A DNA stretch of 64,000 bases from Oscillospiraceae bacterium (GTDB taxonomy: Bacteria; Bacillota; Clostridia; Oscillospirales; Oscillospiraceae), in NCBI GenBank assembly GCA_902779945.1, contig CACZDN010000014.1:45931-109930 (forward strand). The letters are read 5' to 3'. The position numbers were made by a program, and so were the translations under genes. The notes under the pieces are model-generated. The model made no database searches. It had not been told where the DNA came from and saw only the letters and a program-made list of their open reading frames with translations. Positions 835 to 64,000 of the stretch are shown piece after piece. Each line of letters starts with the position of its first letter. Position 1 is the stretch's first letter.

Positions 835-2186
835 GGCTTTTGCTCCCGCTTTTGCCGCGCAAGCTCCTTCTTCCGCTCAAAGTGCAGCTCCAGCAGGTTT
901 TCCAGATTCTCCTTGAAATAGGAGCAGGAGCTCTGCGGCTGCGTGCTGTGCAGATTGTTCTGACGGATCCGGTGGCAGCCGCCGTCGCAGATGGGGAAAT
1001 AGAAGCACTCCCGGCACTCCTGCGAGTCGAGGTAGCTGCAGCCCGTCATGCCCTCGGCAATGAGCGCCATGTTCCAGTCTCTGAGATTGTCCACATTGCC
1101 GACCACGCGCTCCGGGATGCCCACATCGTCCCAGCACTTGTATACCTCGCCCTCCGGCCCAATGACGAAGGCGTTGCGCCGCGTCAGGATGCAGCCCTGC
1201 ATCCGTCTCTCGGGGAAGAGGGAGAACGGGGCGATCTGGTATTTCTCCATCATATGGGTCAGAAACTCGCCCTGCTGCACCGGATCGAAGAAGCAGCTGT
1301 GGTCCGGGTGATCGTCGCCCTTTACAAAGCCGGGATATACGGTGATGCGCTTTCCGAAGTCCGCAGGGTAGCGCTCGCGGATCAGATTGTAGACCTGCGC
1401 AAACTCATCCTCGTTGCGGCTGTCCACATTCACGCGGACGTGGAGCGTCCCGCGGAAATCGGAGGCCATGACACCGTCGATATTCTCCAGGATGCGGTCA
1501 TAGGTTTCGCCGCCGCCGCGCAGAAAGCGGCGGGAATTGTGCGTCTCCCGCGCCCCGTCCAGCGTGATCTGCAGATAGCTGACCCGCAGCTCGTTGAGGC
1601 GGTCCGCCTTGTCCCGCGTCAGGAGATAGCCGTTGGTGATCATGGAGGCGCTGTAGTTTTTGCCCATGTCCTGGAGCCTGCGGTTGATGCTCACGATGCG
1701 GTCAAAGGCCAGCAGCGGCTCCCCGCCGTACCAGGTGATGGACAGATTATCCGCCTTGAATTTCTGGATGAAGCGCATGACCCTGTCCTCGGTCTCCTGC
1801 GTCATGACGGGGCCGCTGTGGCTGCTCTCGAAGCAATAGCTGCAATCAAAGTTGCAGGCCAGGGACAGCGCGAAGGTGATCATCAGGCTCCGGTTGCCGT
1901 ACAGGAAGGACAGCGTGCGCATCTTGTGTATGTTGTAAAAATCGTCGTCCTTGGAGTCCTCCACAAGAAAGCCCAGAGAACGAAGCTGCATATACAGCAT
2001 GGGGAAGGGAGAATAGTCAAAGCCCTCCGGATCGGCCATGATGGCGCGGATGGCGGGCAGCTGCGCCTCCCCCACGGTCAGGAACGATCTGGACACCGTG
2101 TTGAACAGCAGCCAGCCGTTGCGTTTGGATTCAAACAGAATGCTGTATCTGGACCATTTCATGAAGCAAGCCCCCAGCTCTGTCAT
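831..2186 (-). CDS. SPASM-domain radical SAM peptide maturase
   Basis: Predicted 451-residue radical SAM enzyme that would modify the peptide encoded immediately upstream. The CX3CX2C motif that ligates the SAM-cleaving cluster is C111, C115 and C118. The C-terminal third carries the cysteine pattern of a SPASM domain with auxiliary clusters: GCILTRR, VYKCWDD, then ECRECFYFPICDGGC and a final CSYF. The first ~90 residues look like a substrate-recognition region. I chose the ATG at 2186, whose ATGA overlaps the precursor stop; an ATG at 2162 behind a GGGGG run is an alternative. SPASM enzymes of this kind make thioether or C-C crosslinks; which one is made here is not visible. Confidence 0.9.
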   Translation of the reverse strand: MTELGACFMKWSRYSILFESKRNGWLLFNTVSRSFLTVGEAQLPAIRAIMADPEGFDYSPFPMLYMQLRSLGFLVEDSKDDDFYNIHKMRTLSFLYGNRSLMITFALSLACNFDCSYCFESSHSGPVMTQETEDRVMRFIQKFKADNLSITWYGGEPLLAFDRIVSINRRLQDMGKNYSASMITNGYLLTRDKADRLNELRVSYLQITLDGARETHNSRRFLRGGGETYDRILENIDGVMASDFRGTLHVRVNVDSRNEDEFAQVYNLIRERYPADFGKRITVYPGFVKGDDHPDHSCFFDPVQQGEFLTHMMEKYQIAPFSLFPERRMQGCILTRRNAFVIGPEGEVYKCWDDVGIPERVVGNVDNLRDWNMALIAEGMTGCSYLDSQECRECFYFPICDGGCHRIRQNNLHSTQPQSSCSYFKENLENLLELHFERKKELARQKREQKP

Positions 2187-2683
2187 ATCCCAAAGCCGGA
2201 ACCGCCGGTGCTGGCAAGCGCGGCGCAGCCGACGTCGGAGGGGCAGGGGTTGTATGGATTGCACGGCACAAACACGGAGCAGCCGGAATCGTAGGGACAG
2301 CCGCCGTAGGCACCGCATGGGGTACCGTAAACGGCACACGGGGAGCTGTCGGCGCCGCAGGGGGTCGAATAGGCTCCGCACGAGAGCCTGGCTGCGCAGG
2401 TGTTCGCGGAGACAGTCCTCACGTTCCTGCCGCCGGCGATCGTGTCCAGCTCGTGCAGCTCGAGCTCCTGTCCGACAAAGTCGGGCAGCACATACGTTTC
2501 ACCGTAACGCGCGTCCTGCTCGATGAAATCCAGGCGGAAGCCCTCCTCCAGCGGCCTGCCGGCCAGCTCTTCCACAGCGGCTCTCGCGTCCTTTTGCACC
2601 TTCTCACGGAAGGCGGGGTCCTCGGCCAGCGCTTTGTTTATCTTCTGATAAAGCGCTTCCAGTTCCTTTTGTGTACGACTCAT
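2183..2683 (-). CDS. NHLP-type RiPP precursor with Cys-periodic core
   Basis: A 166-residue precursor. Residues 1-85 resemble nitrile-hydratase-like leader peptides (EDPAFREKV near the start, then an acidic ELDTIAGG). The double glycine at 84-85 is the expected C39 peptidase cut site, leaving an 81-residue core. The core has ten cysteines at 96, 102, 109, 116, 123, 129, 135, 141, 147 and 153, a spacing of 6-7 throughout. In eight of them the +3 residue is Tyr, Asp or Phe (C102 to C147). A strong AAGGAGG site precedes the ATG, and the gene overlaps its neighbours by 4 bp on both sides. The mature structure and target are unknown. Confidence 0.9.
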   Translation of the reverse strand: MSRTQKELEALYQKINKALAEDPAFREKVQKDARAAVEELAGRPLEEGFRLDFIEQDARYGETYVLPDFVGQELELHELDTIAGGRNVRTVSANTCAARLSCGAYSTPCGADSSPCAVYGTPCGAYGGCPYDSGCSVFVPCNPYNPCPSDVGCAALASTGGSGFGI

Positions 2684-4926
2684 GTGTATTCCTCCTTTTT
2701 TAGTGCCCCATTCTCCTGTGCCAGCTCTGCGATCTGGCGGGTGGCCATCTGCCAGAAGAGGCCCCTTTTCTCCATAAGATTCTCATAGCTGCCCTCCTCC
2801 GCGATCTGCCCCCGGTCCATCACCAGAATGCGGTCGCAATGCCGCACCGTGGACAGGCGATGGGCGACCACGATGCGCGTGGCCCGCAGCCCGGCGAGGT
2901 TTTGTACGATCCTGTCCTGCAGAAGGTTATCCAGCGAGCTGGTAGCCTCGTCCAGAAACAGGACGGAGGGGCGGTTCACAACCGCCCTGGCCAGCAGGAT
3001 ACGCTGCTTCTGGCCGCCGGAGACGGTCTGTCTCTCCTCGGATACGATCGTATGCAGACCCATGGGCATGGCGCTTACGTCGTCCGTCAGACAGGCGTTG
3101 TCAACGGCCTCCCACACGCGTTCCGGCGAAATATCCGGCGCGCCGATGCTGATGTTTTTATAGATCGTGCCAGAGAACAGACACCCGTCCTGCAGCACCG
3201 TGCCGATTTTTCTTCTCAGCTCCGGCATGTTCAGCTGCTTGATGGGGATGCCGTCGTAGCAGATCACACCGCTTTTGGGGGCGTCAAAGCCCAGAAGGAG
3301 ACGCAGCAGTGTGGATTTCCCGCTGCCGGAATGCCCGACGATACCAATATACTCGCCGGGATGGATGTGTACGGAAATGTCCTTCAAAGCGGTTTGGCTC
3401 TGGCCGCTGTAGGCGAAGGAGACGTTGGAGAGCAGAATATCGCCCTTGAGATTTTGCAGGACAGTCCCGCCCTGACTTCTCTCCTCCCTGCTCTGGAGAA
3501 CGTCGGAGGAATAGCGCAGGACCGGAATCATGGAGATCAGATCGGCGCAGGAGGAGGCCGTCTGGAGCATGGCGGCGGCAAAGAAGCTGAAGGCGGTCAG
3601 AAAGCTCATAAACGTGCCGAGCGTGATCCCCGCCGTTCCGCTGCCCATCTGATGGTACAGCAGGAGTATCGCGACAGAGTTGCCCAGGGCCATTGCTTGG
3701 GTGCCGAAAAGCGAAGCGGTGCTGTTTTTTCGGTCGTTCCGGCTCAGTGCCGCCTCCTGCTGCATATACCGGTCGAGCACCACATCCTCAGCCCCGGCGG
3801 TCCGCACGGTGGCGATGCCGCCGAAGATCTGAAACAGGAAGGATTGTACCCGTCCGGTCAGCCGTGCGCGTTTGGACGAGTAGGAGCGCATGACCATGCT
3901 CATGACGACGGTCGCTGCCATCTCCAGCGCCACGACCGAAAAGCCGATTCTGGATAGAGCGGGGGAGAGCGCCAGCATTCGGCCGCAGTAGAAGAGGGAA
4001 AACCCGCTCTGCAGCACGGCCGTGAGAGCGTTTTGAAACATGCCGACAAAGGTCCCGGACAGGTTCGAAGCCTGAAAAGCCAGCACGCCGCTCTCCTTAC
4101 CGGCGGTAAAGCTCTCCTCCAGATGGAACAGCCGGTCATATACGGCGGCCTGCAGCGCGTAGCGCAGCCGGTCGGTCAGACCCTGCTGGGACAGCCTCTG
4201 AATGAGTGTGAACAGAATATTTGCCAGAAGCACCGCCAGAAACAGCCCGCCCACCTCGTACATCACAAGGGCGTTGCCCATGGGGATGATCTTGTCATAG
4301 ATGGCCTTGCTCAGCGCGGAGATCGCAAGCCCCACCTGGGAGACAAGGAGCATGGCTGTGAGCATCAGCAGGACGTGCCCCGGGGACAGCTCCCGCAGCG
4401 AAAAACCGAGCAGCTCCCGGGGACCTATCCGGGAGGATGTGAAGGAGCGGCACACGACCCAGGCCTGTCTGCCGAGCTTTTTGCGCTCGGCTTCCGACAT
4501 GGGCCGGATAGACTCGTCCCTTGGATCAAAGACGGACAGACGGCCCGGGAAGCTCCAGAAGCACACCACCGGGGTTTCGATCACGCTGCCGGCGGAGTCC
4601 GTATCTCTGAGAAACGCCAGCACCGGCTCATATCGCCGGGAGGGCCAGGCGTCGGGAAGGGTGACCTCCCGGCAGGTAAAGCCGGACAGGCGCGCGATGT
4701 CCGAAAACCTGCGATGCTCAGGACAGGCGCGCTTCAGACGCTCATAGCGGCAGATCGGGATACCGCGCTTCTGGCATAGAAACTGGGCGGCGTCGAACAG
4801 TGGGTCGCCCGTCCACTGGCCAGGGTCGAGACTCTTGTTCCGCTCCGAGACGAAGACTGTCTGAAACCATGCCGAGAGCCGTGCGGTCTGCCGAGCTCTC
4901 TCCGGGGATAGATTTTTGGTTATCAC
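2680..4926 (-). CDS. NHLM-type ABC transporter, permease/ATP-binding protein
   Basis: 748-residue half-transporter. An unusual ~170-residue N-terminal region without catalytic motifs precedes a six-helix ABC exporter domain (about 180-480). The ATPase has Walker A GHSGSGKST from residue 531, signature VSGGQKQR near 635, Walker B VLFLDEATS near 655 and a switch histidine in VAHRLST. It begins with GTG, overlapping the upstream exporter stop by GTGA. NHLM operons typically carry two such ABC proteins, one with and one without a peptidase, and this is the one without. It probably works with the C39 exporter in moving the modified peptide across the membrane. Confidence 0.88.
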   Translation of the reverse strand: MITKNLSPERARQTARLSAWFQTVFVSERNKSLDPGQWTGDPLFDAAQFLCQKRGIPICRYERLKRACPEHRRFSDIARLSGFTCREVTLPDAWPSRRYEPVLAFLRDTDSAGSVIETPVVCFWSFPGRLSVFDPRDESIRPMSEAERKKLGRQAWVVCRSFTSSRIGPRELLGFSLRELSPGHVLLMLTAMLLVSQVGLAISALSKAIYDKIIPMGNALVMYEVGGLFLAVLLANILFTLIQRLSQQGLTDRLRYALQAAVYDRLFHLEESFTAGKESGVLAFQASNLSGTFVGMFQNALTAVLQSGFSLFYCGRMLALSPALSRIGFSVVALEMAATVVMSMVMRSYSSKRARLTGRVQSFLFQIFGGIATVRTAGAEDVVLDRYMQQEAALSRNDRKNSTASLFGTQAMALGNSVAILLLYHQMGSGTAGITLGTFMSFLTAFSFFAAAMLQTASSCADLISMIPVLRYSSDVLQSREERSQGGTVLQNLKGDILLSNVSFAYSGQSQTALKDISVHIHPGEYIGIVGHSGSGKSTLLRLLLGFDAPKSGVICYDGIPIKQLNMPELRRKIGTVLQDGCLFSGTIYKNISIGAPDISPERVWEAVDNACLTDDVSAMPMGLHTIVSEERQTVSGGQKQRILLARAVVNRPSVLFLDEATSSLDNLLQDRIVQNLAGLRATRIVVAHRLSTVRHCDRILVMDRGQIAEEGSYENLMEKRGLFWQMATRQIAELAQENGALKKEEYT

Positions 4927-7112
4927 GGCAGCGTGCTCCCTCCTCCCGCAGAGCTGTACATGCCAGCGTACAGCCCGTTTCGTGCCATCAGGCTCTCATG
5001 TGTGCCGGCCTCCGCGATGCGCCCGTGATCCAGAACCAGGATCAGATCGCAGTCCCGGACGGCGGACAGCCTGTGTGCGACGATCAGACAGGTGCAGGAT
5101 CTCCGGCGCAGCTTGTCCATGACGGCCTTCTCCGTCAGCGGGTCCATGGCGCTGGTGGCCTCGTCCAGAAACAGGAGCGCGGGTTCCTGCAGCAGGGCGC
5201 GGGCAATGGCCAGCTGCTGCCGCTGACCGCCGGAGAGGTTTTTGCCGCCCTCTGTCAGCTCATAGTCCAGCGTACCCGGAAGCGAGCTGACAAGCTCAAG
5301 CGCGCCCGCATCCTCCAGAGCCCGGAGCACGAGCCCCTCGCTGACGTTCCGGTTCCAGAGCGTCAGATTGTTTTCCACGGTATCGGCAAAAAACGCCTCG
5401 CTTTGATTCACCATCGCCACGGCGCGCGTCAGAACCGGCCCGGGCAGGGAGGAGAGCGGGATGCCGTCCAACAGGATCTCTCCCTGCCGGGGAACGAGCA
5501 GACCGGCGGCAAGCTTCAAAAGCGTGCTCTTCCCGCAGCCGGAGGTCCCGACGATCGCGACGCGGGCGCCCGGCTCGATCAGGGCGGAAATGCCCTGAAT
5601 CACAGGCGCGGCAAGACGGTCGTACCCGAACACAAGATCGCGCAGCTCCAGCTTTCCCGAGCAGGAGAGCCCGGTATGACCGCTGTCCTCCGGAATCGTG
5701 AAGCGCGGATCGGGGGCGGCCTCCTCCACGTCCATCACGTTCATCATGTCCGCGCGCATGATCTGCGTCTGCTGCTCCATGGAGATCAGCGTGTTGATCG
5801 GGGAGGTGAAGCTGTTGTAGATCTGGCAGAAGGCAGTGAGCACGCCGACGGAAAAGCGGCCCCGGATCACCTGGGCGCTGCCGATGATCAGCATCAGCGT
5901 TGTGAAGAGGGAGCTGATCGCGTCGGGGATGGAGGAGAGGACCTGCTGGAGTCGGGTCAGGCGCAGGTCGCTGTCCGCATAGTTTACATAATATCCAAGC
6001 AGCTCGGCGGTATAGTCGTTTTCCGTTCCGCCGGCCTTGATCGACGAAAACACGGAGAGGCCGGCGCACAGCCTGCCGTACAGCCAGTTTTCGTCCAGCT
6101 GGTGCTTCATGGAGAGGTTTTTCAGCGGCTCCAGCGTCAGCCGCAGCGCAAGCAGAGAGGCGGCCACGCCCACAAGACCCAACAGGGTCAGCAGGGGGCT
6201 GTACAGCAGCATCAGGCCGAGATAGAACACACTGATCACCAGGTTCATCAGCGTCATGAGATAGCTGCCCGCCAGATGCGCGTTGACGGCGTTGCTGCTT
6301 TGCTCGCGCTGCGAGAGCTCCCCCGCGTAGCGCTGTTCAAAAAAGGCGATGGGCAGCCGCAGCATCCGGCCGACAAGCTTGTAGTTCTCCGACAGATTCA
6401 GCTTCAGCCGGAGCCTTGCGAGAAGCTGGGAGCGCAGCACGTTCATCAAAAAGGTCGATGCGTAGACCACGCCCATCGCGAGCAGGACGAGACTCAGCCA
6501 TTCCGAATTTCTCGCGGTCATGACGTTGTCCATGAAAATCTGCGTCAGGATCGGCGCCGAAAGACTGGCCGCCAGCAGCAGAACACTGAGCAGCAGGAGA
6601 TAGAGCATCAGGCTTTTTTCGGGCCTGAGCCGTTCCGAGGCCATGGAAAAAAGGCTCTCCCTCCGGCCGCGGGGCTGAAAGTCCCTGCCGGGCTCCATGC
6701 AGAGCATGACGCCGGAGTAGCAGGCTTCCAGCTCCGCCTCACTGATACGCCGATGCCCGATGATGGGGTCGTTGATCAGAACCCTGTTTTTCCGAAAGCC
6801 CTCAAGCACGACAAAGTGGTCGTCGTTCCAGAAGAGGATGCAGGGCAGCGGGGCCTTTCTGAGCTTTTGCGCCGTGGTCCGATAGCCGCCTCCCTTGAGC
6901 CCGTACTGCCTCGCGGCCGCAAGGACCCCGGACGCGGTACAGCCGTTGCGGGAGACGCCGCAGGCCTGGCGCAGTTCCTCCAGCGAGACCCGGCAGCCGT
7001 AATAGCGCAGGATCATGGAGAGGGAGGCGGCTCCGCATTCGGCGGCCTCCATCTGCAAAACCTCCGGTGTGCGTACAACGCGCTTTTTCTCAGCGCTTCC
7101 GACAGTCGTCAT
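4923..7112 (-). CDS. C39 peptidase-containing ABC exporter (PCAT) for the RiPP
   Basis: 729 residues. The N-terminal ~135 residues are a C39 cysteine protease: nucleophile C26 in AAECGAAS, H99 in DDHFVVLEG and D115 in NDP form the expected triad. A membrane domain (about 165-450) and an ATPase follow, with Walker A GTSGCGKST, signature LSGGQRQQ and Walker B LLFLDEATS. Such proteins cut leaders after a double glycine while exporting the core, which fits the GG at residues 84-85 of the co-transcribed precursor. The ATG overlaps the stop of the HlyD-like gene by 4 bp. All catalytic motifs look intact. Confidence 0.93.
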   Translation of the reverse strand: MTTVGSAEKKRVVRTPEVLQMEAAECGAASLSMILRYYGCRVSLEELRQACGVSRNGCTASGVLAAARQYGLKGGGYRTTAQKLRKAPLPCILFWNDDHFVVLEGFRKNRVLINDPIIGHRRISEAELEACYSGVMLCMEPGRDFQPRGRRESLFSMASERLRPEKSLMLYLLLLSVLLLAASLSAPILTQIFMDNVMTARNSEWLSLVLLAMGVVYASTFLMNVLRSQLLARLRLKLNLSENYKLVGRMLRLPIAFFEQRYAGELSQREQSSNAVNAHLAGSYLMTLMNLVISVFYLGLMLLYSPLLTLLGLVGVAASLLALRLTLEPLKNLSMKHQLDENWLYGRLCAGLSVFSSIKAGGTENDYTAELLGYYVNYADSDLRLTRLQQVLSSIPDAISSLFTTLMLIIGSAQVIRGRFSVGVLTAFCQIYNSFTSPINTLISMEQQTQIMRADMMNVMDVEEAAPDPRFTIPEDSGHTGLSCSGKLELRDLVFGYDRLAAPVIQGISALIEPGARVAIVGTSGCGKSTLLKLAAGLLVPRQGEILLDGIPLSSLPGPVLTRAVAMVNQSEAFFADTVENNLTLWNRNVSEGLVLRALEDAGALELVSSLPGTLDYELTEGGKNLSGGQRQQLAIARALLQEPALLFLDEATSAMDPLTEKAVMDKLRRRSCTCLIVAHRLSAVRDCDLILVLDHGRIAEAGTHESLMARNGLYAGMYSSAGGGSTLP

Positions 7113-7714
7113 GACGCAAAAAACCTGCTCAGCTGGGGGATACCCAGCGTGATGGGGTGTACGGTCTCCTGAATGATGGTGAGCGAGGCCCAGGTCCCGT
7201 CGTGGAGCTTCAGTGTCCTGCCCTTTTCGTTGGTCCAGAAGAAGCCGTTTTCCGATTCCGCGTCCTCCTTCAGCTTGCAGATCACCGTCACGCAGGGGCC
7301 GTTCGCCGCGAAGGCGTTGACGATGAGATCATCGCTGAAGAGCTTCTGCATACTGTCGACGGAGGCGGTATACGGATCAATATAGGTAATGCTTCCGCGC
7401 ATGTTTCCGTACTCTTCGAGGTTGTAGCCTGTCAGGTTCACGACTACGTCCATGCCGGTATCCAGCGTTTTCCCCGTGGTCAGGGGGACGAGCGCGATGA
7501 TCTCGCCGCAGTTGGAGCTGCCGGGATGGTAGAGGGCGGTCGCGCTGACGGTGCGGCTGAGACTGCCGAAGCAGGCCCAGACCGTAAAGCCGACAAAAAC
7601 GAGAAACAGACCCGTCAGCATGAGCCAGTGAACCGGCGCCGTGACGGCGAACATCCGGTCGATCCGGTCCGATTCGTTCTCGCGGGAAATTCCGTTTGGA
7701 AGATCCTGTGCCAT
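7109..7714 (-). CDS. Short HlyD-like NHLM secretion protein
   Basis: 201-residue membrane-anchored protein with a single transmembrane helix at about residues 30-50 (HWLMLTGLFLVFVGF) and the remainder extracytoplasmic. Position between the radical SAM gene and the C39 exporter, and the beta-rich C-terminal part ending in HPITLGIPQL, suit the membrane fusion/secretion protein of NHLM loci. It is only about half the length I expect for that family and I see no coiled-coil hairpin, so it may be a minimal adaptor. A TAAGGAG site lies before the ATG, and its stop overlaps the exporter start. Confidence 0.72.
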   Translation of the reverse strand: MAQDLPNGISRENESDRIDRMFAVTAPVHWLMLTGLFLVFVGFTVWACFGSLSRTVSATALYHPGSSNCGEIIALVPLTTGKTLDTGMDVVVNLTGYNLEEYGNMRGSITYIDPYTASVDSMQKLFSDDLIVNAFAANGPCVTVICKLKEDAESENGFFWTNEKGRTLKLHDGTWASLTIIQETVHPITLGIPQLSRFFAS

Positions 7715-7725
7715 TTCGCGTCTCC

Positions 7726-9624
7726 TTATTGTTCACTCCCGTCCCTGCCCGGCAGGGCCACAAGAAGGTATTTTCCGCTGAGACAGATCAGAAAGCCGCG
7801 CTGCGTGAGCCAGTCCAGGGCGCGGTGAAGCCTCGCTTCCGACCAGGCGCCGGAAAGGCTTTCCGTAATATGAGCCGGGGAGACGGGGCGAACGCACGCC
7901 CTGCACAGCGCGGCTTCCGCCCCGCTGAGAAAGGACACGGAGCTCACTCTGCATGGCCGCGAATCGAGCATCATGATATACTCGCCCCGGTCCAGCATGA
8001 CGAGCCGCGCAGGCTCACCGCGCTTCCAGCTGTCAAGCCAGTCCTGAACGACGCGCCTGAGCTTTTCGTACAGGGGAAGATGCGCCTGAAACGCTTCAAA
8101 GGCTTCGCCGCCTGTCAGGTCGTAATAGAGGGCCGTGTCACGGATCAGATCCTGACTGTTCCCATACAGGAAGGGGTAGAGGGCGTTGGGACGCAGAACG
8201 AGGCCGTAGCGCTCCGGGTCCGTCAGATAGCGGCTGTATCGCTGAAAGGCGATCCGCGTGGCAATCTGCGGCGGCGGCAGGTGCGCGAGCTTCGGCAGAA
8301 GGGCCAACAGCTCCTCATAATCGGCGGCGCTCTCTCCGGGAATGGCGTAGAGGATGTTCCACATGAGGGACACATCGTTTTGCGCGCAGGAGATCATGAA
8401 CGCCACATTCTGAACCGCGCTGCCGCCCTTTCCCATGAGCTGCAGCAGATGATCCTGCAGGCTCTCGACGCCGGCCTGTACGCTGACAAAGCCGGCCCTG
8501 CGCAGGGCGGCGAGCTCCGCGTCTGTCAGATTGGTCTTCACCTCGGCCACAAAACGGTACGGCGTATGCTCCGACTCCAGGAGGGCGGGCAGCTCGCGCA
8601 CCACATTGCGGCTCAGCACGTTGTCTGTCAGCTCAAAGAGGGTCGAGCCGGTCTTCCTGGAGATCTCATGAAGCTCCGCCAGCAGGCGCTGCGGCGTCTT
8701 GGCCCGGTATTTGTTCTTCTCCCCGTTGAGGCCGCAAAAGCTGCACGGGTGCTTTTCGCCCCACCAGCACCCGCGGGAGCCCTCCACGAGAAGCAGCGGC
8801 TCCAGATCCGGCCCGTAAAAGGGACTGTTGCGCAGCAGCTCCGGCAGCTCCGGCGTCATGGCCTGCGCGAGCTGAGAGCTGAAATCGCTGAAATCAGGGA
8901 CCGGCACCCGATTCATGTCCCGCGTCATGGCGTAGGGCAGCGGGTCGGGCAGGGGAGTGCCCCGACAAATGACCCCGCAGGGCAGCGCATCCGCATCACC
9001 TGCGGCCAGGGCGCGGCAGGCCTGGGCCATGCCCTCGTCCCCCTCGCCGAGATACACGGCGTCGACCTGCGGACAAAAGCGCAGGATGGCGGCCCCGGCG
9101 CTGCCGGAACAGTTGGGCCCGCCCATCAGCGTGCGGATCTCCGGCGCCAGCTCCTTCACTCTGCGGAGGATGGCCAGCGTTCCGTTGTTCTGGGTAAAAA
9201 CGGAGCTTGCCGCGAGGACTGAAGGCCGCAGCGCCGCGATCTCACGGGCGGTCTCCTCCGTACAGAGCCCGGCGGCCCGCATCGCCCGGCGGATCAGCCC
9301 GGCAAAGACCGCAGGGTCCAGAAAAGGGTCCCGTTCGGCGGCGAGAGCGGCGTATTCGTCCACGCTCCGGGGCTCCCCGATCCCGGTCAGATGGGAAAAA
9401 ATGAACTCCTCATACAGCGACATGCTCTGCAGGTTGTTCAGCCGCAGACAGAGCTCCGCCCCCATGAGCCGCACCATCCGCAGCATGGGATACAAAACCA
9501 CCGAGGAAATGCCCTCCTGTGCAAGGCAGGACTTGAAGATGGACAGGGCGAGCGACTGCCGGGGAGGAAAGACATAGGGCGCGGAAAGAAAGACGACCTC
9601 CGGCCGCCGATTTGCGCTTGGCAT
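7726..9624 (-). CDS. RiPP maturation radical SAM protein 1 (B12-binding type)
   Basis: First gene of the RiPP operon. The start at 9624 (MPSANRR) is preferred over the ATG at 9639 because GGGGGAAGGA sits just before it, giving 632 residues. Residues 1-220 look like a cobalamin-binding Rossmann domain (LMGGPNCSG, VYLGEGDEG). The radical SAM cluster ligands lie in an unusual CX7CX2C arrangement, GCWWGEKHPCSFC, with C286, C294 and C297; this spacing is the hallmark of the ocin_1 maturase family in NHLP bacteriocin loci. Related enzymes methylate or otherwise alkylate peptide residues, but the reaction here is inference. A small C-terminal winged-helix-like part (about 560-625) follows. Confidence 0.9.
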   Translation of the reverse strand: MPSANRRPEVVFLSAPYVFPPRQSLALSIFKSCLAQEGISSVVLYPMLRMVRLMGAELCLRLNNLQSMSLYEEFIFSHLTGIGEPRSVDEYAALAAERDPFLDPAVFAGLIRRAMRAAGLCTEETAREIAALRPSVLAASSVFTQNNGTLAILRRVKELAPEIRTLMGGPNCSGSAGAAILRFCPQVDAVYLGEGDEGMAQACRALAAGDADALPCGVICRGTPLPDPLPYAMTRDMNRVPVPDFSDFSSQLAQAMTPELPELLRNSPFYGPDLEPLLLVEGSRGCWWGEKHPCSFCGLNGEKNKYRAKTPQRLLAELHEISRKTGSTLFELTDNVLSRNVVRELPALLESEHTPYRFVAEVKTNLTDAELAALRRAGFVSVQAGVESLQDHLLQLMGKGGSAVQNVAFMISCAQNDVSLMWNILYAIPGESAADYEELLALLPKLAHLPPPQIATRIAFQRYSRYLTDPERYGLVLRPNALYPFLYGNSQDLIRDTALYYDLTGGEAFEAFQAHLPLYEKLRRVVQDWLDSWKRGEPARLVMLDRGEYIMMLDSRPCRVSSVSFLSGAEAALCRACVRPVSPAHITESLSGAWSEARLHRALDWLTQRGFLICLSGKYLLVALPGRDGSEQ

Positions 9625-9719
9625 GTTTCCTTCCCCCATAGGTAAGGGCCTCTCTTTCCGGACTACATAGACCGTTTCGGGCCGGACAGGATGTGGCCCA
9701 AAATTGACTGCTTTATTCC

Positions 9720-12728: not shown

Positions 12729-12952
12729 GTAAATATAAGCAAACATGAGATGACGTTGAGGCCTGCCTGATCTGCCTTGTGATCACGCTCCTGCGAAAAC
12801 CGCGCCCCGCCATGAGACACAGATTCGGATTTGACAGGACGGGAGAGCGCGTCCTTCGGCGGATATACCACCGCAGCGTTCTTTACACGTTCTCGAGCGC
12901 CTTTACCGTGATGAGGAACACGGCTGTCGTAAGAGCTGTATGTTTTTGTTAG
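12729..12952 (+). other. Gene-free leader region before MITE copy 1
   Basis: No convincing reading frame. It includes a short hairpin (GGACGGGAGAGCGCGTCC, around 12837-12855). I looked for glycine and guanidine riboswitch cores and found none. The function of this unusually long leader, if it is one, is open. Confidence 0.3.
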
Positions 12953-13110
12953 GGCAACACCGCATAATTCGGCGAGAGCGAATCCTGAGAAAATTTGGGT
13001 TCTGATGAAGGCTTTTTTTGCAGGAATACTTTGTGTATTTCAAGAAAAAGTGACAAAATCAGAGCGCGAATTTTCCAGGAGGTGCCGAAGGCGAATTGCG
13101 CGGTGTTGCC
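12953..13110 (+). mobile_element. MITE-like element, copy 1 (158 bp)
   Basis: Begins GGCAACACCGCATAATTCGGC and ends with GCGGTGTTGCC, an imperfect ~21 bp terminal inverted repeat whose outer 11 bp are nearly exact. It is flanked on both sides by TTAG, a 4 bp target duplication. The right end lies 22 bp before the AspT-family start codon, so the element is inside that gene's 5' leader. It encodes no protein: a stop interrupts the short frame seen in other copies. Confidence 0.85.
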
Positions 13111-14498: not shown

Positions 14499-16283
14499 AT
14501 GAGCATGGAAACAACGCCGCGCATATCCTCAGACCTCGGACTGCAAACGAAGATTTACTTCCGCCTGCTGCCCTATCAGATCCTTCTGGCCGTGATCAAC
14601 GCGATCAACGGCATCGTCGACGGCCTCTATGCCAGCAACGCCATCGGCGTGACGGCGATGAGTGCCATCGGGCTCTTTAACCCCTTCAACCTTTTCCTGT
14701 ACGCGGCGAGCATGATGCTGGTCAGCGGCTCGCAGATCCTGTACGGGCGCTATCTGGCAAAGGAGCGCGAGCGTATCCACAGTGTGTTCAGCGTGGACCT
14801 CGTCCTCTCGACCGGGCTCTCGGTCCTGACGGCTCTGGTGCTGGCGCTGGGTGCACTGACCGGCGCGACGCGTGTGATGATCGCGGAAGAAGCGGTCCTG
14901 CCGGTCTTCAACCAATATCTTCTGGGGCAGTCGGTCGGCATCCCGGCGCTGGTGCTGGGCCAGCAGCTCTTTGCTTTCCTGTCCCTCGAAAACCAGACGA
15001 AGCGGACCATGGCCGCCAGCCTCGTCTGCATCGCTGCGAAAGCAGCCATGAACCAGGTGCTTGTCGTCTTCTTCAACATGGGGAGCTTCGGCCTGGGCCT
15101 TGCCTCCTCGGTTGCGATGTGGCTGTTTCTCATTATTCAGGCCATGTATTATCTGCGGGGCAGATCGGAGTGGCACTTCTCCCTTCGGGCCTGCCGGTGG
15201 AAGGATGCGCTCCAGATCGTCGGCCTTGGCTACCCCGGGGCGATGCCCCGCTTTTTCGAGATGCTTCGCGGCTTCATTGTGAACGTGGTGGTGCTCAGGT
15301 ATGTGGGCAGCGTGGGGCTGTCGGCCTTCGCGGCGTCCGGCTCGCTGCTGGGTGTTGTCTGGGCCTATCCCTTCGGCCTGATGGCGGTCGAGCGTATCCT
15401 CTACAGCATCAGCTGGGGTGAGGAGGACCGGAGAAGCGTGACGGACACCATGCGCATCACGCTCACACGCGGCGTGCTCATCATGTTCGGCATCGCGGCT
15501 CTCCTGGTCCTCGCGGCGGTGCCGCTGACGCACCTTTTCTATCGGGACCCCTCGGATCCGGTCTACACCATGACTGTCATGGGCTTTCGCCTGCTGCCGT
15601 GCTGTATGCCGCTGTCCGTGTTCAGCCTGAGCTACAGCTGCTATGCCCAGGTCGCGGAGAAACGGCTGATGGCCAATCTCCTCCCGATCGTGGACGGCGC
15701 GCTGGGCGTCGTCAGCTGCAGCGTGGTCCTGATCCCGCTTATCGGGATGAATGGCCTGTATATCGCGAACATCCTCAACGGCGTGATTTGTCTTCTGATG
15801 GTCGTCATCTGCGTCTGGATCTCAAAGAAGCGCTTCCCTCGTACGCTGGAGGATCTGATGGCGTATCCGGACAGCTTCGGCGTGGACGAGAAGAAACGGC
15901 TTGACGTGACGGTGCGCAGTGTGGAGGACGTGCTGGCCGTTTCCGAGAGCGTGATGGCCTTCTGCGAGGCGAGGGGCGTCGACCGGCGCCGCTCGGCCCT
16001 GTCGGGGCTGTGTCTGGAGGAGATGGCGGGCAATGTGGTGCAGCACGGCTTTACAAAGGATCACAAGCCGCACTCACTGGATATCCGCGTCTCGCTCAAG
16101 GATGACGACGTGATCCTACGCCTCCGGGACGACTGCATCGCTTTTGACCCCGTCTCGCGCGCCAAGGCGAACGAATCCGACGACGGGATCCGAAACCTGG
16201 GTATCGGCCTGGTAAACGCCATCGCAAAGGAGGAGCAGTACCAGAACCTCCTGGGCCTCAATGTTCTGATGATCCGCATTTGA
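14499..16283 (+). CDS. MATE-family transporter fused to a HATPase_c (RsbW-like) domain
   Basis: 594 residues in two parts. Residues 1-450 form a twelve-helix MATE/polysaccharide-flippase-type transporter. Residues about 455-594 are a soluble GHKL ATP-binding domain of the anti-sigma RsbW/SpoIIAB kind: the N-box is seen in CLEEMAGNVVQHG, the G1-like aspartate in LRDDCIAFDP and the glycine box in GIGLVNAIA. No histidine-kinase H-box is present, so the domain may act as a protein serine kinase or nucleotide sensor. A continuous frame through the junction argues against an error. Function is inferred only from the parts. Confidence 0.85.
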   Translation: MSMETTPRISSDLGLQTKIYFRLLPYQILLAVINAINGIVDGLYASNAIGVTAMSAIGLFNPFNLFLYAASMMLVSGSQILYGRYLAKERERIHSVFSVDLVLSTGLSVLTALVLALGALTGATRVMIAEEAVLPVFNQYLLGQSVGIPALVLGQQLFAFLSLENQTKRTMAASLVCIAAKAAMNQVLVVFFNMGSFGLGLASSVAMWLFLIIQAMYYLRGRSEWHFSLRACRWKDALQIVGLGYPGAMPRFFEMLRGFIVNVVVLRYVGSVGLSAFAASGSLLGVVWAYPFGLMAVERILYSISWGEEDRRSVTDTMRITLTRGVLIMFGIAALLVLAAVPLTHLFYRDPSDPVYTMTVMGFRLLPCCMPLSVFSLSYSCYAQVAEKRLMANLLPIVDGALGVVSCSVVLIPLIGMNGLYIANILNGVICLLMVVICVWISKKRFPRTLEDLMAYPDSFGVDEKKRLDVTVRSVEDVLAVSESVMAFCEARGVDRRRSALSGLCLEEMAGNVVQHGFTKDHKPHSLDIRVSLKDDDVILRLRDDCIAFDPVSRAKANESDDGIRNLGIGLVNAIAKEEQYQNLLGLNVLMIRI

Positions 16284-19111: not shown

Positions 19112-19149
19112 AAGACTGTATCAGTATTGTGCATGTGGTCTTGCTTTAA

Positions 19150-19308
19150 GGCAATACCGCATAATTCGGCAAGAGCAGATCCTGAGAAAATCTGGGTTCT
19201 GATAAAGGCAGTTTTTCGCAGATGTACTTTGTGTACCTCAAGAAAAAGGCTCGAAATCAGGGCGCAATTTTTCCAGGAGATGCCGCAGGCGGATTGTGCG
19301 GTGTTGCC
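19150..19308 (+). mobile_element. MITE-like element, copy 2 (159 bp)
   Basis: Ends GGCAATACCGC and GCGGTGTTGCC, flanked by TTAA on both sides (4 bp target duplication). It lies in the gap between the convergent sulfatase and TIR-LRR genes. Internal sequence GCAGATGTACTTTGTGTACC is shared with copies 6 and 7, defining a subfamily. Confidence 0.87.
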
Positions 19309-19338: not shown

Positions 19339-20763
19339 CTATTCCGTCACAAGAAGCGCAGTCAAATTCTTCGAATCTGCCAGCGCCTCGCGCAAAACAG
19401 GCTCCATGCTCCTGTCAGCCGTAACGGTGCGCAGGCTATCAAGTCCCGCCAGCGCCGACCAGTCGAGCTTTTCTCCGCTGCGAATCAGCGTAAGCTCCCG
19501 CAGGCCTGTGAAGTCCTCCAGGTTTTTTGTGGAGTTGAGCTTGCAGTCCGTAAGATTCAGTGTCACGATGTTCCACTCCCGGTCAAAACGCTTGAAGAAG
19601 CGCCCGCGCAGATCACAGTTTGTAAAGCGCAGATCGGAGAGACTGCTCAGGCGCATGAGGGGCCGCAGCTCGTTGATGGCGGCGTTGTCGATCTCCACCT
19701 CCGCCAGCACCGTCATGGTTTTGAGCGGCGCATAGGAGCTCACATCCGCCCCTGCCAGGCGAAGCCGCCGAAGCTGGAGGCAGTGGGACAGATCCCCGAG
19801 CAGACGGATGGGGCAGTTTTCCGTGTCAAGCTCCCGCAGAAGCTGCAGCTTCCCCACGCCGCTGAGATTGACGATACCGCAGTCGCGCAGGACAAGCGTC
19901 TCCACGGAACAGACCGGCAGCGCCTCCAGATCCTCCTCCTCATACCCGGTCAGCGTCAGCTTCCTGAGATCGGGAAACCAGCGCAGCTCGGAGAGCTCCA
20001 CGGCCTCCGGGGCGTTCAGGGAAAGCTCACTCAGCCCCGTGAGATCGGACACGGTAAGCGCCCCGTCCGTCAGCCCCGCATGTGCGCGCGCAGCGCTCTC
20101 CAGACGGGTGCTTGTGAAGTTGATCTCCGTTTCCCCGGGGAAAACCGGGATCTCCGACTGGTGATGCATGTAGTAAATGCGCTGGGCATAACCTGTGGAC
20201 CAGCCGACTATGCCGAGGGTCGTGAGGGCTGCGAGCAGCGCAAGCGATACGCACAGCGCCGCGATGCGTCTGCCCGTCCAACGCTTTTTCTTTTTTAACG
20301 GCGCCGCATGAAACACAAATAAATGCTTCTCCCGGCCCAGAAACGGGGCAAGCTGCGGCGCGTCCAGGAGCTTTTGATAGAAGCTGTCCTCGTCCATGCT
20401 GTACTTCATCAGCGCGAACAGGGGGCCGATCTGCATCTCCATGCCGGGGGTGAGGGCGGTCTCCTCCAGAAAGATGTTGACCGTTTTGATCTTCCGTGTC
20501 TGGGCAAAGTGCATCTCCTTGCGGCAGTTGTCCGAACCGACATAGGCGTTGGAGAGAAAGGCCAGCATCACAGAGGCGCCGTCGAGGTGCGCGGCAATAT
20601 ACTCCGGCCACTCGCTGCCGACCTCTATGCCGCCGTCATACCAGATACGGCAGCCTACGCTCTGCAGCCGCGCAGCGATCTCCATGACCGCATGGGCGTC
20701 CGCATGGGCGTAGCTGAGAAAAATATAGGGTTCGCTGCCTTCGTAGGGCTTGACTGTATCCAC
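19339..20763 (-). CDS. TIR-transmembrane-LRR protein
   Basis: 474 residues in three parts. Residues 10-140 are a TIR domain: FLSYAHADA, WYDGGIEVG, LAFLSNAYVGS and a DNCRKEMHFA segment with the glutamate of NAD-cleaving TIRs. One membrane helix (about 168-190) follows a KKKKRW basic stretch, so the TIR should be cytoplasmic and the rest outside. Residues 225-470 are irregular leucine-rich repeats. It starts at GTG with AGGAGG 8 nt upstream. The architecture mirrors a Toll-like receptor in reversed order. A sensing or defence role is inference; a surface role is equally possible. Confidence 0.85.
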   Translation of the reverse strand: MDTVKPYEGSEPYIFLSYAHADAHAVMEIAARLQSVGCRIWYDGGIEVGSEWPEYIAAHLDGASVMLAFLSNAYVGSDNCRKEMHFAQTRKIKTVNIFLEETALTPGMEMQIGPLFALMKYSMDEDSFYQKLLDAPQLAPFLGREKHLFVFHAAPLKKKKRWTGRRIAALCVSLALLAALTTLGIVGWSTGYAQRIYYMHHQSEIPVFPGETEINFTSTRLESAARAHAGLTDGALTVSDLTGLSELSLNAPEAVELSELRWFPDLRKLTLTGYEEEDLEALPVCSVETLVLRDCGIVNLSGVGKLQLLRELDTENCPIRLLGDLSHCLQLRRLRLAGADVSSYAPLKTMTVLAEVEIDNAAINELRPLMRLSSLSDLRFTNCDLRGRFFKRFDREWNIVTLNLTDCKLNSTKNLEDFTGLRELTLIRSGEKLDWSALAGLDSLRTVTADRSMEPVLREALADSKNLTALLVTE

Positions 20764-22168: not shown

Positions 22169-22195
22169 GGGTCGATCTGGGGATCGACCCCTACG
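22169..22195 (+). repeat. GGGTCGATC palindrome, copy A
   Basis: Arms GGGTCGATC and GATCGACCC around TGGG, then CTACG. The same 27 bases occur as an exact reverse complement at 38329-38355. Confidence 0.8.
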
Positions 22196-22197
22196 AG

Positions 22198-22329
22198 GGC
22201 AACACCGCACAATCCGCCTTCGGCGCCTCCTGGAAAATTCGCGCTCTGATTTTGTCACTTTTTCTTGAAATACACAAAGTATTCCTGCAAAAAACAGGAT
22301 TCGCTCTCGCCGAATTATGCGGTGTTGCC
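22198..22329 (-). mobile_element. MITE-like element, copy 3 (132 bp, internally deleted)
   Basis: Inverted orientation. Both ends are intact (GGCAACACCGC / GCGGTGTTGCC) and flanked by CGAG, a 4 bp target duplication. Compared with copy 1 it lacks 26 internal bases after GCGAATCCTG, yet otherwise is nearly identical to it. It inserted directly beside the GGGTCGATC palindrome. Confidence 0.87.
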
Positions 22330-22420
22330 CGAGGGAAAAAGACACCCATCCGGGGGGATAGTTATCCCAGATAAACGTCTTTGTTCAACACGGTGAGAAT
22401 ACACCGCGAAGGTCGCTTTA

Positions 22421-37673: not shown

Positions 37674-38064
37674 CCGTCGCTATGACAAAAATAGGAGCTG
37701 ACGTCTTTGGGAGGGCTATCGAGGATTACCCGACACATCCCTCTCTGGTATCAGCTCCCAATAAAGCCGATTTATCAGTTTCCTATATATTAGCAGATAT
37801 TGTACGGGAAATCAACCCCACGGATGCACATTTCTTGAAATATATACCCGACAAGATGCTCAGTGAGGAACAGCTAACGGCAAAGCAGGCGGCTATTGCC
37901 GAGGATGAAAAGCGGATTGCGGCTTACGCGAAGAAGCAACCAAACGGCAAGCTCTCTGTCAAGGAGGAAACTCAGCAGACCCAAGAAGCTATGGCTAATC
38001 CTGACAGTAAAATTAGAACGCCAGACGGGAAACACCGCGTGGTCTATCACGGCACAAGCTCTAA
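37670..38064 (+). pseudogene. Second polyvalent-protein fragment, truncated by MITE copy 4
   Basis: Starts ATGA-coupled to the previous frame (MTVAMTKIGADVF). After about 90 unrecognised residues it again shows NGKLSVKEETQQTQ and RVVYHGTSSK, a second copy of the module boundary seen at 37320-37445. The frame is broken at 38065 by a MITE-like element, immediately after the YHGT motif. It is a relic of the same mobile-element gene family; no function is expected. Confidence 0.7.
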
Positions 38065-38223
38065 GGCAACACCGCATGATTCGGCAAGAGCGAATCCCGA
38101 GAAAAATCAGGTTCCGAGAAAGGCAATTATTCACAGGAATACTACGTGCATTGCAAGAAAAAAGGACGAAGTCAGGGTGCAATTTTTCCAGGAGGCGCCG
38201 ATGGCGGATCGCGCGGTGCTGCC
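38065..38223 (+). mobile_element. MITE-like element, copy 4 (159 bp)
   Basis: Starts GGCAACACCGC and ends GCGGTGCTGCC (one change in the right repeat). The flanks CTAA and CTGA match at three of four bases, an eroded target duplication. It interrupts the phage-like fragment, showing insertion into a reading frame. The internal sequence is the most diverged of the set together with copy 5. Confidence 0.82.
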
Positions 38224-38485
38224 CTGATACGAAACTGCCGGAAAGGCAGAAAGAAATATTTGACAGCGAAAGCCTGATTGAATATACTTGTTTATGGGTA
38301 TCGGCTTTAATCAGCAAACCGCCCATTTCGTAGGGGTCGATCCCCAGATCGACCCGAACACCGGGGCATTGTACAAGTCATAAGGTTTCCCGATACGCAT
38401 ATACTTGTTTTAACCGAGGTATATATTGCCGGATAGAGGAGTCAGACAAACTGTACGGACATTGAGCCGGATGAAAAGAGACCGA
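38224..38485. other. Gene-free remnant region between MITE copies 4 and 5
   Basis: No credible gene. It is AT-rich, contains the GGGTCGATC palindrome and may include further debris of the interrupted phage-like gene (GAAATATTTGACAGCG near 38255). Nothing else is recognisable. Confidence 0.4.
38329..38355 (-). repeat. GGGTCGATC palindrome, copy B
   Basis: Exact reverse complement of 22169-22195 (27 of 27 bases). Both copies stand close to a MITE-like element and to gene debris. Confidence 0.8.
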
Positions 38486-38641
38486 GGCAATACCGCATGA
38501 TGCGGTAAGAGCGAATCCTGCGAAAAACGGGTTCTGATAAAGGCAATTTTTCACTGAAATACTTTGTGTATGGCAAGAAACAGACTCAAAAAAGGGCAAA
38601 TTTTCCCGGGAGGCACCGATGGCGGATTGCGCGGTTTTGCC
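38486..38641 (+). mobile_element. MITE-like element, copy 5 (156 bp)
   Basis: GGCAATACCGC at the left and GCGGTTTTGCC at the right. The flanks CCGA/CTGA are no longer an exact duplication. The remaining 89 bp to the next gene hold no clear promoter. Confidence 0.8.
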
Positions 38642-42689: not shown

Positions 42690-42751
42690 TACTCTTCCTT
42701 GATAGAAAGCCCCTTATCAGGGAAGAGCAGGACTGATCACAAAATGATAAA

Positions 42752-42906
42752 GGCAATACCGCATAATTCGGCAAGAGCAGATCCTGAGAAAAATTGGGTT
42801 CTGATAAAGGCACTTTTTCGCAGATGTACTTTGTGTACCTCAAGGAAAAGTGACGAAATCAGAGCGCAAATTTTCCAGGAGATGCCGAAGGCTGTGCGGT
42901 GTTGCC
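42752..42906 (+). mobile_element. MITE-like element, copy 6 (155 bp)
   Basis: GGCAATACCGC at the left, GCGGTGTTGCC at the right, exact TAAA duplication on both flanks (42748-42751, 42907-42910). The right TAAA forms the edge of the 19 bp inverted repeat that follows. It lies between two convergent EPS gene blocks. Confidence 0.87.
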
Positions 42907-63813: not shown

Positions 63814-63903
63814 GCACAAGTTTTTGATAAGGAAGCAGCCGTTTCCGAAAACTCCCGGCGCAAGGTACCGAGAGGATACCCGCTTGTTTTTTTCCCTTGC
63901 AAG

Positions 63904-64000
63904 GGCAACACCGCACAATCCGCCTGCGGCATCTCCTGGAAAATTTGCGCCCTGATTTCGAGCCTTTTTCTTGAGGTACACAAAGTACATCTGCGAAAAA
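63904..64000 (-). mobile_element. MITE-like element, copy 7 (cut by window end)
   Basis: Inverted orientation. The end GGCAACACCGCACAATCCGCC and the next ~75 bases match copies 2 and 6 closely. The far terminal repeat lies outside the window, so the target duplication cannot be checked. Confidence 0.82.

Follow-up and report, generated by a model that had tools for sequence, protein, structure and literature searches.

The gene cluster at one end of the DNA analyzed here, a stretch of 64,000 nucleotides from an Oscillospiraceae bacterium (the window), is, judged by its sequence, a proteusin-leader branch of NCBI's "Cys-every-fifth" (Cef) RiPPs, in which a CefB-like SPASM radical SAM enzyme is accompanied by a PoyD-type epimerase and a B12 C-methyltransferase. 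Its two precursors, A and B, appear to share with 16 precursors of related clusters and with two CefA peptides a common unit that reads Cys, small, small, variable. These features suggest an uncharacterised peptide product, possibly stapled many times along its length, and the most likely product of the SPASM enzyme, at a little under an even chance, would be a series of in-line thioether rings that join each Cys to the residue three positions downstream (+3).

Organization of the Gene Cluster

On the minus strand, the genes follow one another in the order B12 C-methyltransferase, HlyD-like protein, two ABC transporter genes, precursor A, SPASM enzyme, PoyD-type epimerase and precursor B, the last of which (301 aa; contig C14:44163-45068) belongs to the same row and lies just outside the window. 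The close spacing and shared strand of the eight genes suggest a single transcript, and precursor A is likely one of the two substrates of this RiPP row.

The B12-binding radical SAM protein (7726-9639) passes the cut-off of the RiPP C-methyltransferase family TIGR03975 (490 vs. 282 bits). The short HlyD-like secretion protein (7109-7714, 201 aa) scores 106 bits with TIGR03794, for which the cut-off is 156; it spans less than half of the length of this model and matches its C-terminal third only (model positions 295-420 of 421). Subunit 1 of the NHLM-type ABC transporter (4923-7112) carries a C39 peptidase domain that passes its cut-off (Peptidase_C39, 129 vs. 22 bits). Both subunit 1 (TIGR03796, 790 bits, cut-off 853) and subunit 2 (2680-4926; TIGR03797, 616 bits, cut-off 709) match NHLM models best, under the equivalog cut-offs. 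The SPASM radical SAM maturase (831-2162, 443 aa) is CefB-like and contains the motif CNFDCSYC.

The N-terminal part of the PoyD-type radical SAM epimerase occupies positions 1-834 of the window, the whole gene (445 aa) being located at contig C14:45427-46764. It scores 310 bits with the PoyD model TIGR04517 (cut-off 325), and its homologue in the related cluster L003 scores 340. Both have a Cys at position 372 of the window epimerase, which agrees with Cys372, the conserved residue that PoyD homologues are reported to require for their in vivo activity (PMC8326336), by residue number alone and not by an alignment to PoyD. The PoyD model matches one of 300 genomes from the family to which the window belongs, namely that of the window itself, so that the gene cluster looks acquired.

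Other genes and repeats were recorded in and around the window. Just left of it on contig C14 (L004:2734-5997), a plus-strand row coding for a Condensation-domain protein, an acyl carrier protein and an AMP-binding ligase converges on precursor B. A MatE transporter fused with a histidine-kinase-like ATPase domain is encoded on the plus strand (14499-16283), and the minus strand codes for a protein that carries a TIR domain at its N-terminus and leucine-rich repeats at its C-terminus (19339-20763). A dispersed repeat of about 60-150 bases occurs in both orientations at 12943-13110, 19148-19308, 22188-22339, 38063-38225, 38529-38591, 42750-42892, and 63894-64000, the best pair of copies being 99% complementary.

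Precursor A

The open reading frame of precursor A extends on the minus strand from an ATG at 2683 to the end of its stop codon at 2183 and encodes 166 aa. It looks like a real gene because an AAGGAGG stretch precedes the ATG, its start overlaps the end of the upstream ABC transporter frame by 4 bases, and its NHLP-like leader (residues 1-85, ending in IAGG with the GG at residues 84-85) resembles TIGR03793 (leader_NHLP; 25.5 bits, E 8.6e-6, which is below the curated cut-off of 50.9). An initial annotation had taken this frame for a RiPP precursor with a SPASM radical SAM gene next to it, and this reading is supported. Translation of the minus strand also bears out the GG and the ten core cysteines that it had placed at residues 96, 102, 109, 116, 123, 129, 135, 141, 147, and 153, with spacings of 6, 7, 7, 7, 6, 6, 6, 6, and 6 residues.

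The residues at +3 of the ten cysteines are, in order, R, Y, D, Y, Y, D, F, Y, D, and L, so that the series Y, D, Y, Y, D, F, Y, D proposed from C102 to C147 holds as described. Eight of the ten Y, D or F residues found among the 61 non-Cys positions of the tail sit at +3, and none of 200,000 shuffles of the tail reached the observed pattern, even with the best of eight offsets allowed. With eight CX2[YDF] units, precursor A ranks first among the 514 stop-to-stop frames of at least 60 aa in the window; the runner-up has six, in a frame of 633 residues.

Precursor B

The leaders of A and B are identical at 70 of 85 residues and 212 of 255 bases, and on this evidence the two genes look like duplicates with different cores. 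The leader of B scores 25.4 bits with leader_NHLP (cut-off 50.9). Its core contains 31 cysteines, the first interval being of 9 residues and the following 29 repeating 5, 5, 6 without fault. D, K, Q, E, A, H, Y, N, and F all occur at +3. Over the ten 16-residue repeats, K stands at +3 of the first unit in four, D at that of the second in six, and H, Y, Q, N or F at that of the third in eight. The DNA of B shows repeats of 48 and 96 bases; for A, none were reported. Precursor B passes the CefA model NF038108 (48 bits, cut-off 30), whereas A gives no match to it at E up to 10. A Val/Ile/Leu-rich stretch between the GG and the first Cys (e.g., SVVVIIS, SMLLIVS) is present in B and in the class-a relatives described below and is missing in A. 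A solenoid fold of B was considered and set aside, as the AlphaFold model (mean pLDDT 40) offers no basis for such a reading; the structure models of the cores (pLDDT about 28-39) are unusable.

Related Clusters

Among the genomes sampled, the SPASM enzyme has few near relatives. Apart from the window's own genome, there was one match among 98 relatives at 1e-40 (G062, 32% identical), at least one among 390 members of the class at 1e-55 (G305, 34%) and, among the matches listed, none in 397 members of the phylum at 1e-70; in the class and phylum searches these comprised at most four candidates per genome, so that misses are possible. The maturases of G305 and G062 match the Clo7bot model best, below its cut-off, and the leader profile described below (E 1) matched no open reading frame in these two stretches. 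Seven plasmid records carry relatives of the SPASM enzyme (28-31% identical), and one of the three examined supplied a CefA peptide; viral contigs yielded three weak matches at 30%. Matches to the CefA model in G155 (with an internal stop) and G459 (a short frame) remained below cut-off.

A pattern scan of species genomes led to a single locus, in a Lachnospiraceae metagenome-assembled genome (MAG), with a SPASM enzyme 58% identical to that of the window. Around this MAG, the enzyme was found at 1e-70 in nine places in 8 of 244 genomes (the MAG included). Seven of the clusters (L003 and L035 to L040) encode a SPASM enzyme 55-59% identical to the window's, and the stretch also includes one gene of PoyD type (42-45%) and one for a B12 radical SAM protein (31-32%). 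A leader profile derived from A, B and both precursors of L003, which therefore match by construction, revealed 16 precursors beyond A and B: seven of class a, seven of class b, plus a single one in each of L041 and L042. In every one of the seven clusters, the three radical SAM genes recur with two unlike precursors and the SPASM gene directly follows the class-b precursor, as it follows A in the window. Five core cysteines are kept in all seven class-a precursors and two in all seven of class b. The four class-a relatives tested pass leader_NHLP (57-59 bits, cut-off 50.9), and the one class-b precursor tested scored 49.2.

The remaining two places, L041 and L042, belong to one genome (G1378) and encode SPASM enzymes 44-45% identical to the window's, with no tblastn match to its PoyD or B12 genes. 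The single neighboring frame of L041 that was scanned against families gave no match. In L042 (6114-13372), the SPASM gene adjoins a homologue of the YydG-type epimerase (194 bits, cut-off 300); beyond the precursor, whose NHLP leader is followed by the core GCSLSIFRMC, lies an ApyD-like B12 radical SAM gene (275 bits, cut-off 750); one more SPASM-like gene is also present. By sequence similarity, the pairing of an epimerase with a B12 enzyme thus seems to recur in L042 with unlike proteins, as though the mix of functions were kept.

The recurrence of paired precursors bears on the possibility that A is a drifting, unprocessed copy of B and that B is the sole substrate. In keeping with such decay, A alone fails the CefA model, its cysteines are more widely spaced, the hydrophobic stretch is absent, and searches of plasmid and phage collections returned no match to it. 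However, its frame is intact, with a good ribosome site and the ABC gene overlap, its +3 pattern is far tighter than chance, and each of the seven related clusters likewise keeps two unlike precursors, which together make this explanation quite improbable.

The Cys-Small-Small-Variable Unit

When G, A, S, P, T, and V (Val included) are counted as small, the +3 residue is non-small in 10 of 10 units of A, 28 of 31 of B, 18 of the 25 unique units of the relatives, 14 of 27 in the CefA peptide of genome G157 and 17 of 28 in that of a Methylomagnum plasmid. The share of non-small residues at +1, +2, and +4 never exceeds 22% in any of these sets, and +3 is the offset at which it is highest in A, in B, in a pooled sample of the relatives and in both CefA peptides. 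For these counts, units of fewer than four letters were dropped (those at the final Cys of L041 and L042), duplicates among the class-a and class-b units were collapsed, which left 25 units from 16 precursors, and only the repeat part of each CefA was considered (27 of the 31 Cys of G157). In a pooled shuffle of 7 of the 16 relatives, 17 of 22 residues at +3 were non-small, a figure that none of 5,000 shuffles equaled. Some results speak against the rule: a size test was not significant for the relative core L3a alone (p 0.42, best offset -2) and gave p 0.09 for the G157 CefA, and the L042 core (CSLS) falls outside the unit pattern. Whether a unit of A or B has 5, 6 or 7 residues, the large residue keeps its place at +3, and its position relative to the next Cys shifts; the register is therefore set by the preceding Cys and not by the next one. 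CefA alone cannot fix it, because +3 and -2 coincide in strict 5-residue repeats.

The initial annotation had defined the unit as CX2(Y/D/F), and of this the four-residue length and the +3 register with the preceding Cys are real, whereas the identity of the +3 residue is not a defining trait. Precursor B and the 16 relatives carry D, K, E, Q, N, H, Y, F, A or S at this position, which rules out CX2[YDF] as a strict motif. Residue-specific acceptors, also part of the original proposal, have to be abandoned, as equally spaced class-a relatives exchange K/D, E/D, E/N or A/K at one and the same +3 site. Ala or Ser occupies +3 in 3 of 31 units of B, 7 of the 25 unique units of the relatives, and 13 of 27 and 11 of 28 units of the two CefA peptides (G157 and Methylomagnum, respectively). 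Two other motifs were rejected: a freyrasin-type CX3D is excluded by the +4 residues of A (S, G, V, L, N, and A), and acceptors of the NXXC type, at -3, would fit only the 6-residue units of A.

The same distribution of residues could arise if the SPASM enzyme crosslinked Cys to backbone carbons of small residues (e.g., Gly, Ala or Pro at -1, +1, +2 or +4) and +3 were an outward-facing display site. Small residues do prevail at +1, +2, +4, and -1 of A, of B and of the CefA from G157, as they do at +1, +2, and +4 of the relatives, and a display site would be expected to differ among relatives, as +3 does. In B, however, Tyr, Phe or His is found at +3 in 4 of 9 six-residue units vs. 0 of 20 five-residue units (p 0.005 for a comparison chosen post hoc), so that +3 is not independent of the geometry of the unit; crosslinking to small residues is rated a serious though rather unlikely alternative. 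The Tyr-rich precursor A is built from 6- and 7-residue units only, and bulky +3 residues may need a longer unit.

The SPASM Enzyme

The maturase carries the CX3CX2C motif and a SPASM domain (TIGR04085, 53 bits, cut-off 27). Its scores are 208 bits with CefB (NF038107, cut-off 600), 198 with TIGR04463 (cut-off 525) and 193 with the Clo7bot model TIGR04334 (cut-off 600); the PapB ranthipeptide model (115 bits, cut-off 340) and SCIFF (92 bits) are both far under cut-off. In a tree, the enzymes of the window and of the seven clusters group together (8 rows, support 100/100), and the ten NHLP-linked SPASM enzymes fall into a single clade (100/100) separate from two TIGR04463 enzymes, some outgroup branches being long and unsure in their placement. 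The tree thus indicates that the NHLP-linked maturase is a clade distinct from the TIGR04463 enzymes. An RRE domain at residues 1-68 is a lead only, with strands and helices predicted there in a model whose pLDDT block means are 58-83 and whose overall mean is 50. Foldseek searches with this poor model placed 5why and 5wgg on top, and 5wgg is also the nearest solved structure by sequence (E 1.4e-15). We take 5wgg to be CteB. It comes from a study whose title refers to thioether bond formation, and CteB is described as forming a bond between Cys and the gamma carbon of Thr (PMC11002830).

The SPASM enzyme lies under the cut-off of every peptide-maturase model among the matches listed (25 of 76 families), and its chemistry can therefore not be read from its family. 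This leaves room for another bond or oxidation (e.g., a carbon-carbon bond or one to an aromatic ring) with the cysteines free, in disulfides or bound to metal, and at +3 of A, Tyr and Phe are frequent. Against such chemistry stand the conservation of the core cysteines in all class-a and class-b precursors, the lack of aromatic residues in most of their units, and the nearest solved structure, which is that of a thioether enzyme; we regard it as improbable.

A Model for Maturation

In the favored scheme, the SPASM enzyme would bind the leader and join the sulfur of each Cys to the residue at +3, producing a row of separate four-residue rings in which almost any residue could serve as acceptor, through its alpha carbon, as in streptosactin, or its beta or gamma carbon, as in freyrasin. 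This proposal is founded on 5wgg as the nearest structure and on streptosactin and PapB as precedents for in-line rings. The occurrence of Ala or Ser at some +3 sites fits poorly with a bond to the beta carbon. A fully permissive acceptor would be unusual, which counts against the scheme.

The PoyD-type epimerase would probably act ahead of the first Cys, on the Val/Ile/Leu-rich stretch of B and of the class-a precursors, a stretch that A does not have; it is the likely target because Val and Ile are reported to be epimerised in the proteusin PlpA (PMC8326336). We further infer that the B12 enzyme would add methyl groups and that the C39 transporter would cut after the GG and export the peptide, for which a role as an antibacterial or signaling molecule is a guess. 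A more far-reaching version, doubtful when taken as a whole, is that one SPASM enzyme lays a ladder of i to i+3 thioethers with almost any acceptor, aromatic residues included, forming up to 10 rings in A and up to 31 in B; that B, and perhaps A, also receives D-residues and C-methyl groups and becomes a stapled rod; and that the Cys-small-small-variable unit is a common Cef code from Bacillota to Pseudomonadota.

Comparison with Known Peptide Families

The Cef peptides (CefA/CefB, NF038108 and NF038107) and the TIGR04463 systems likewise combine a SPASM maturase with extended arrays of the Cys, small, small, variable unit. We file B as a Cef member by score; A shares the unit and fails the model, and the maturase constitutes a separate clade under the CefB and TIGR04463 cut-offs. 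A TIGR03975 C-methyltransferase also adjoins the Cef genes in G157 and on the Methylomagnum plasmid, where CefA, a TIGR04463 maturase and the methyltransferase are annotated in a row (L032:5870-11383), as in G157. In contrast to the window precursors, which have an NHLP-like leader, the G157 core begins at residue 349, and the leader profile (E 1) matched no open reading frame in the G157 or Methylomagnum stretch. The units also differ in length (5-6 residues in B and 6-7 in A, vs. 5 and 10 in Cef), and the PoyD-type epimerase of the window cluster has no counterpart in G157.

Proteusins such as polytheonamide also have an NHLP-like leader and a PoyD-type epimerase (PMC8326336); they differ from the window cluster, in which the cores are Cys repeats served by a SPASM maturase. 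Ranthipeptides (e.g., freyrasin, with its CX3D units modified by PapB) resemble the window system in their many in-line Cys units and in a SPASM enzyme that is partly similar. PapB is described as forming in-line thioethers in Cys-Xn-Asp with n from 0 to 6 and as accepting D-residues at Cys or Asp (PMC9413430), its acceptors being Asp, Glu and some non-natural ones (PMC9413430; PMC11002830). The window units are CX2X instead of CX3D, and their +3 residue is not limited to Asp or Glu. The streptosactins, which are unnested sactipeptides, share the arrangement in separate rings, one of which is an S-C-alpha bond from Cys31 to Gly34, i.e., i to i+3; the second bond appears in print as Cys15-Ser28, a spacing other than i to i+3 that we suspect to be a misprint, the product being called a 14mer (PMC8172795). 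This 14mer has two rings, and the passages on it mention neither an NHLP leader nor an epimerase (PMC8172795).

A 2014 survey of anaerobes describes radical SAM genes in NHLP clusters (PMC4289311). In the literature searched, which mostly excludes subscription journals, no mix of proteusin leader, Cys-repeat core and SPASM maturase stood out, and TIGR04463, TIGR04334, Clo7bot, NF038107 and "Cys-every-fifth" were not named. Polytheonamide maturation involves a B12 radical SAM methyltransferase, as well.

Significance

Cef peptides already have family models, and the window locus and its relatives add short, expressible substrates, from class-b cores of two units to precursor A with its eight clear ones. 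Three kinds of radical SAM enzyme stand here beside one type of leader. If the +3 rule is true, the SPASM enzyme would offer a means of peptide stapling that tolerates different acceptor residues.
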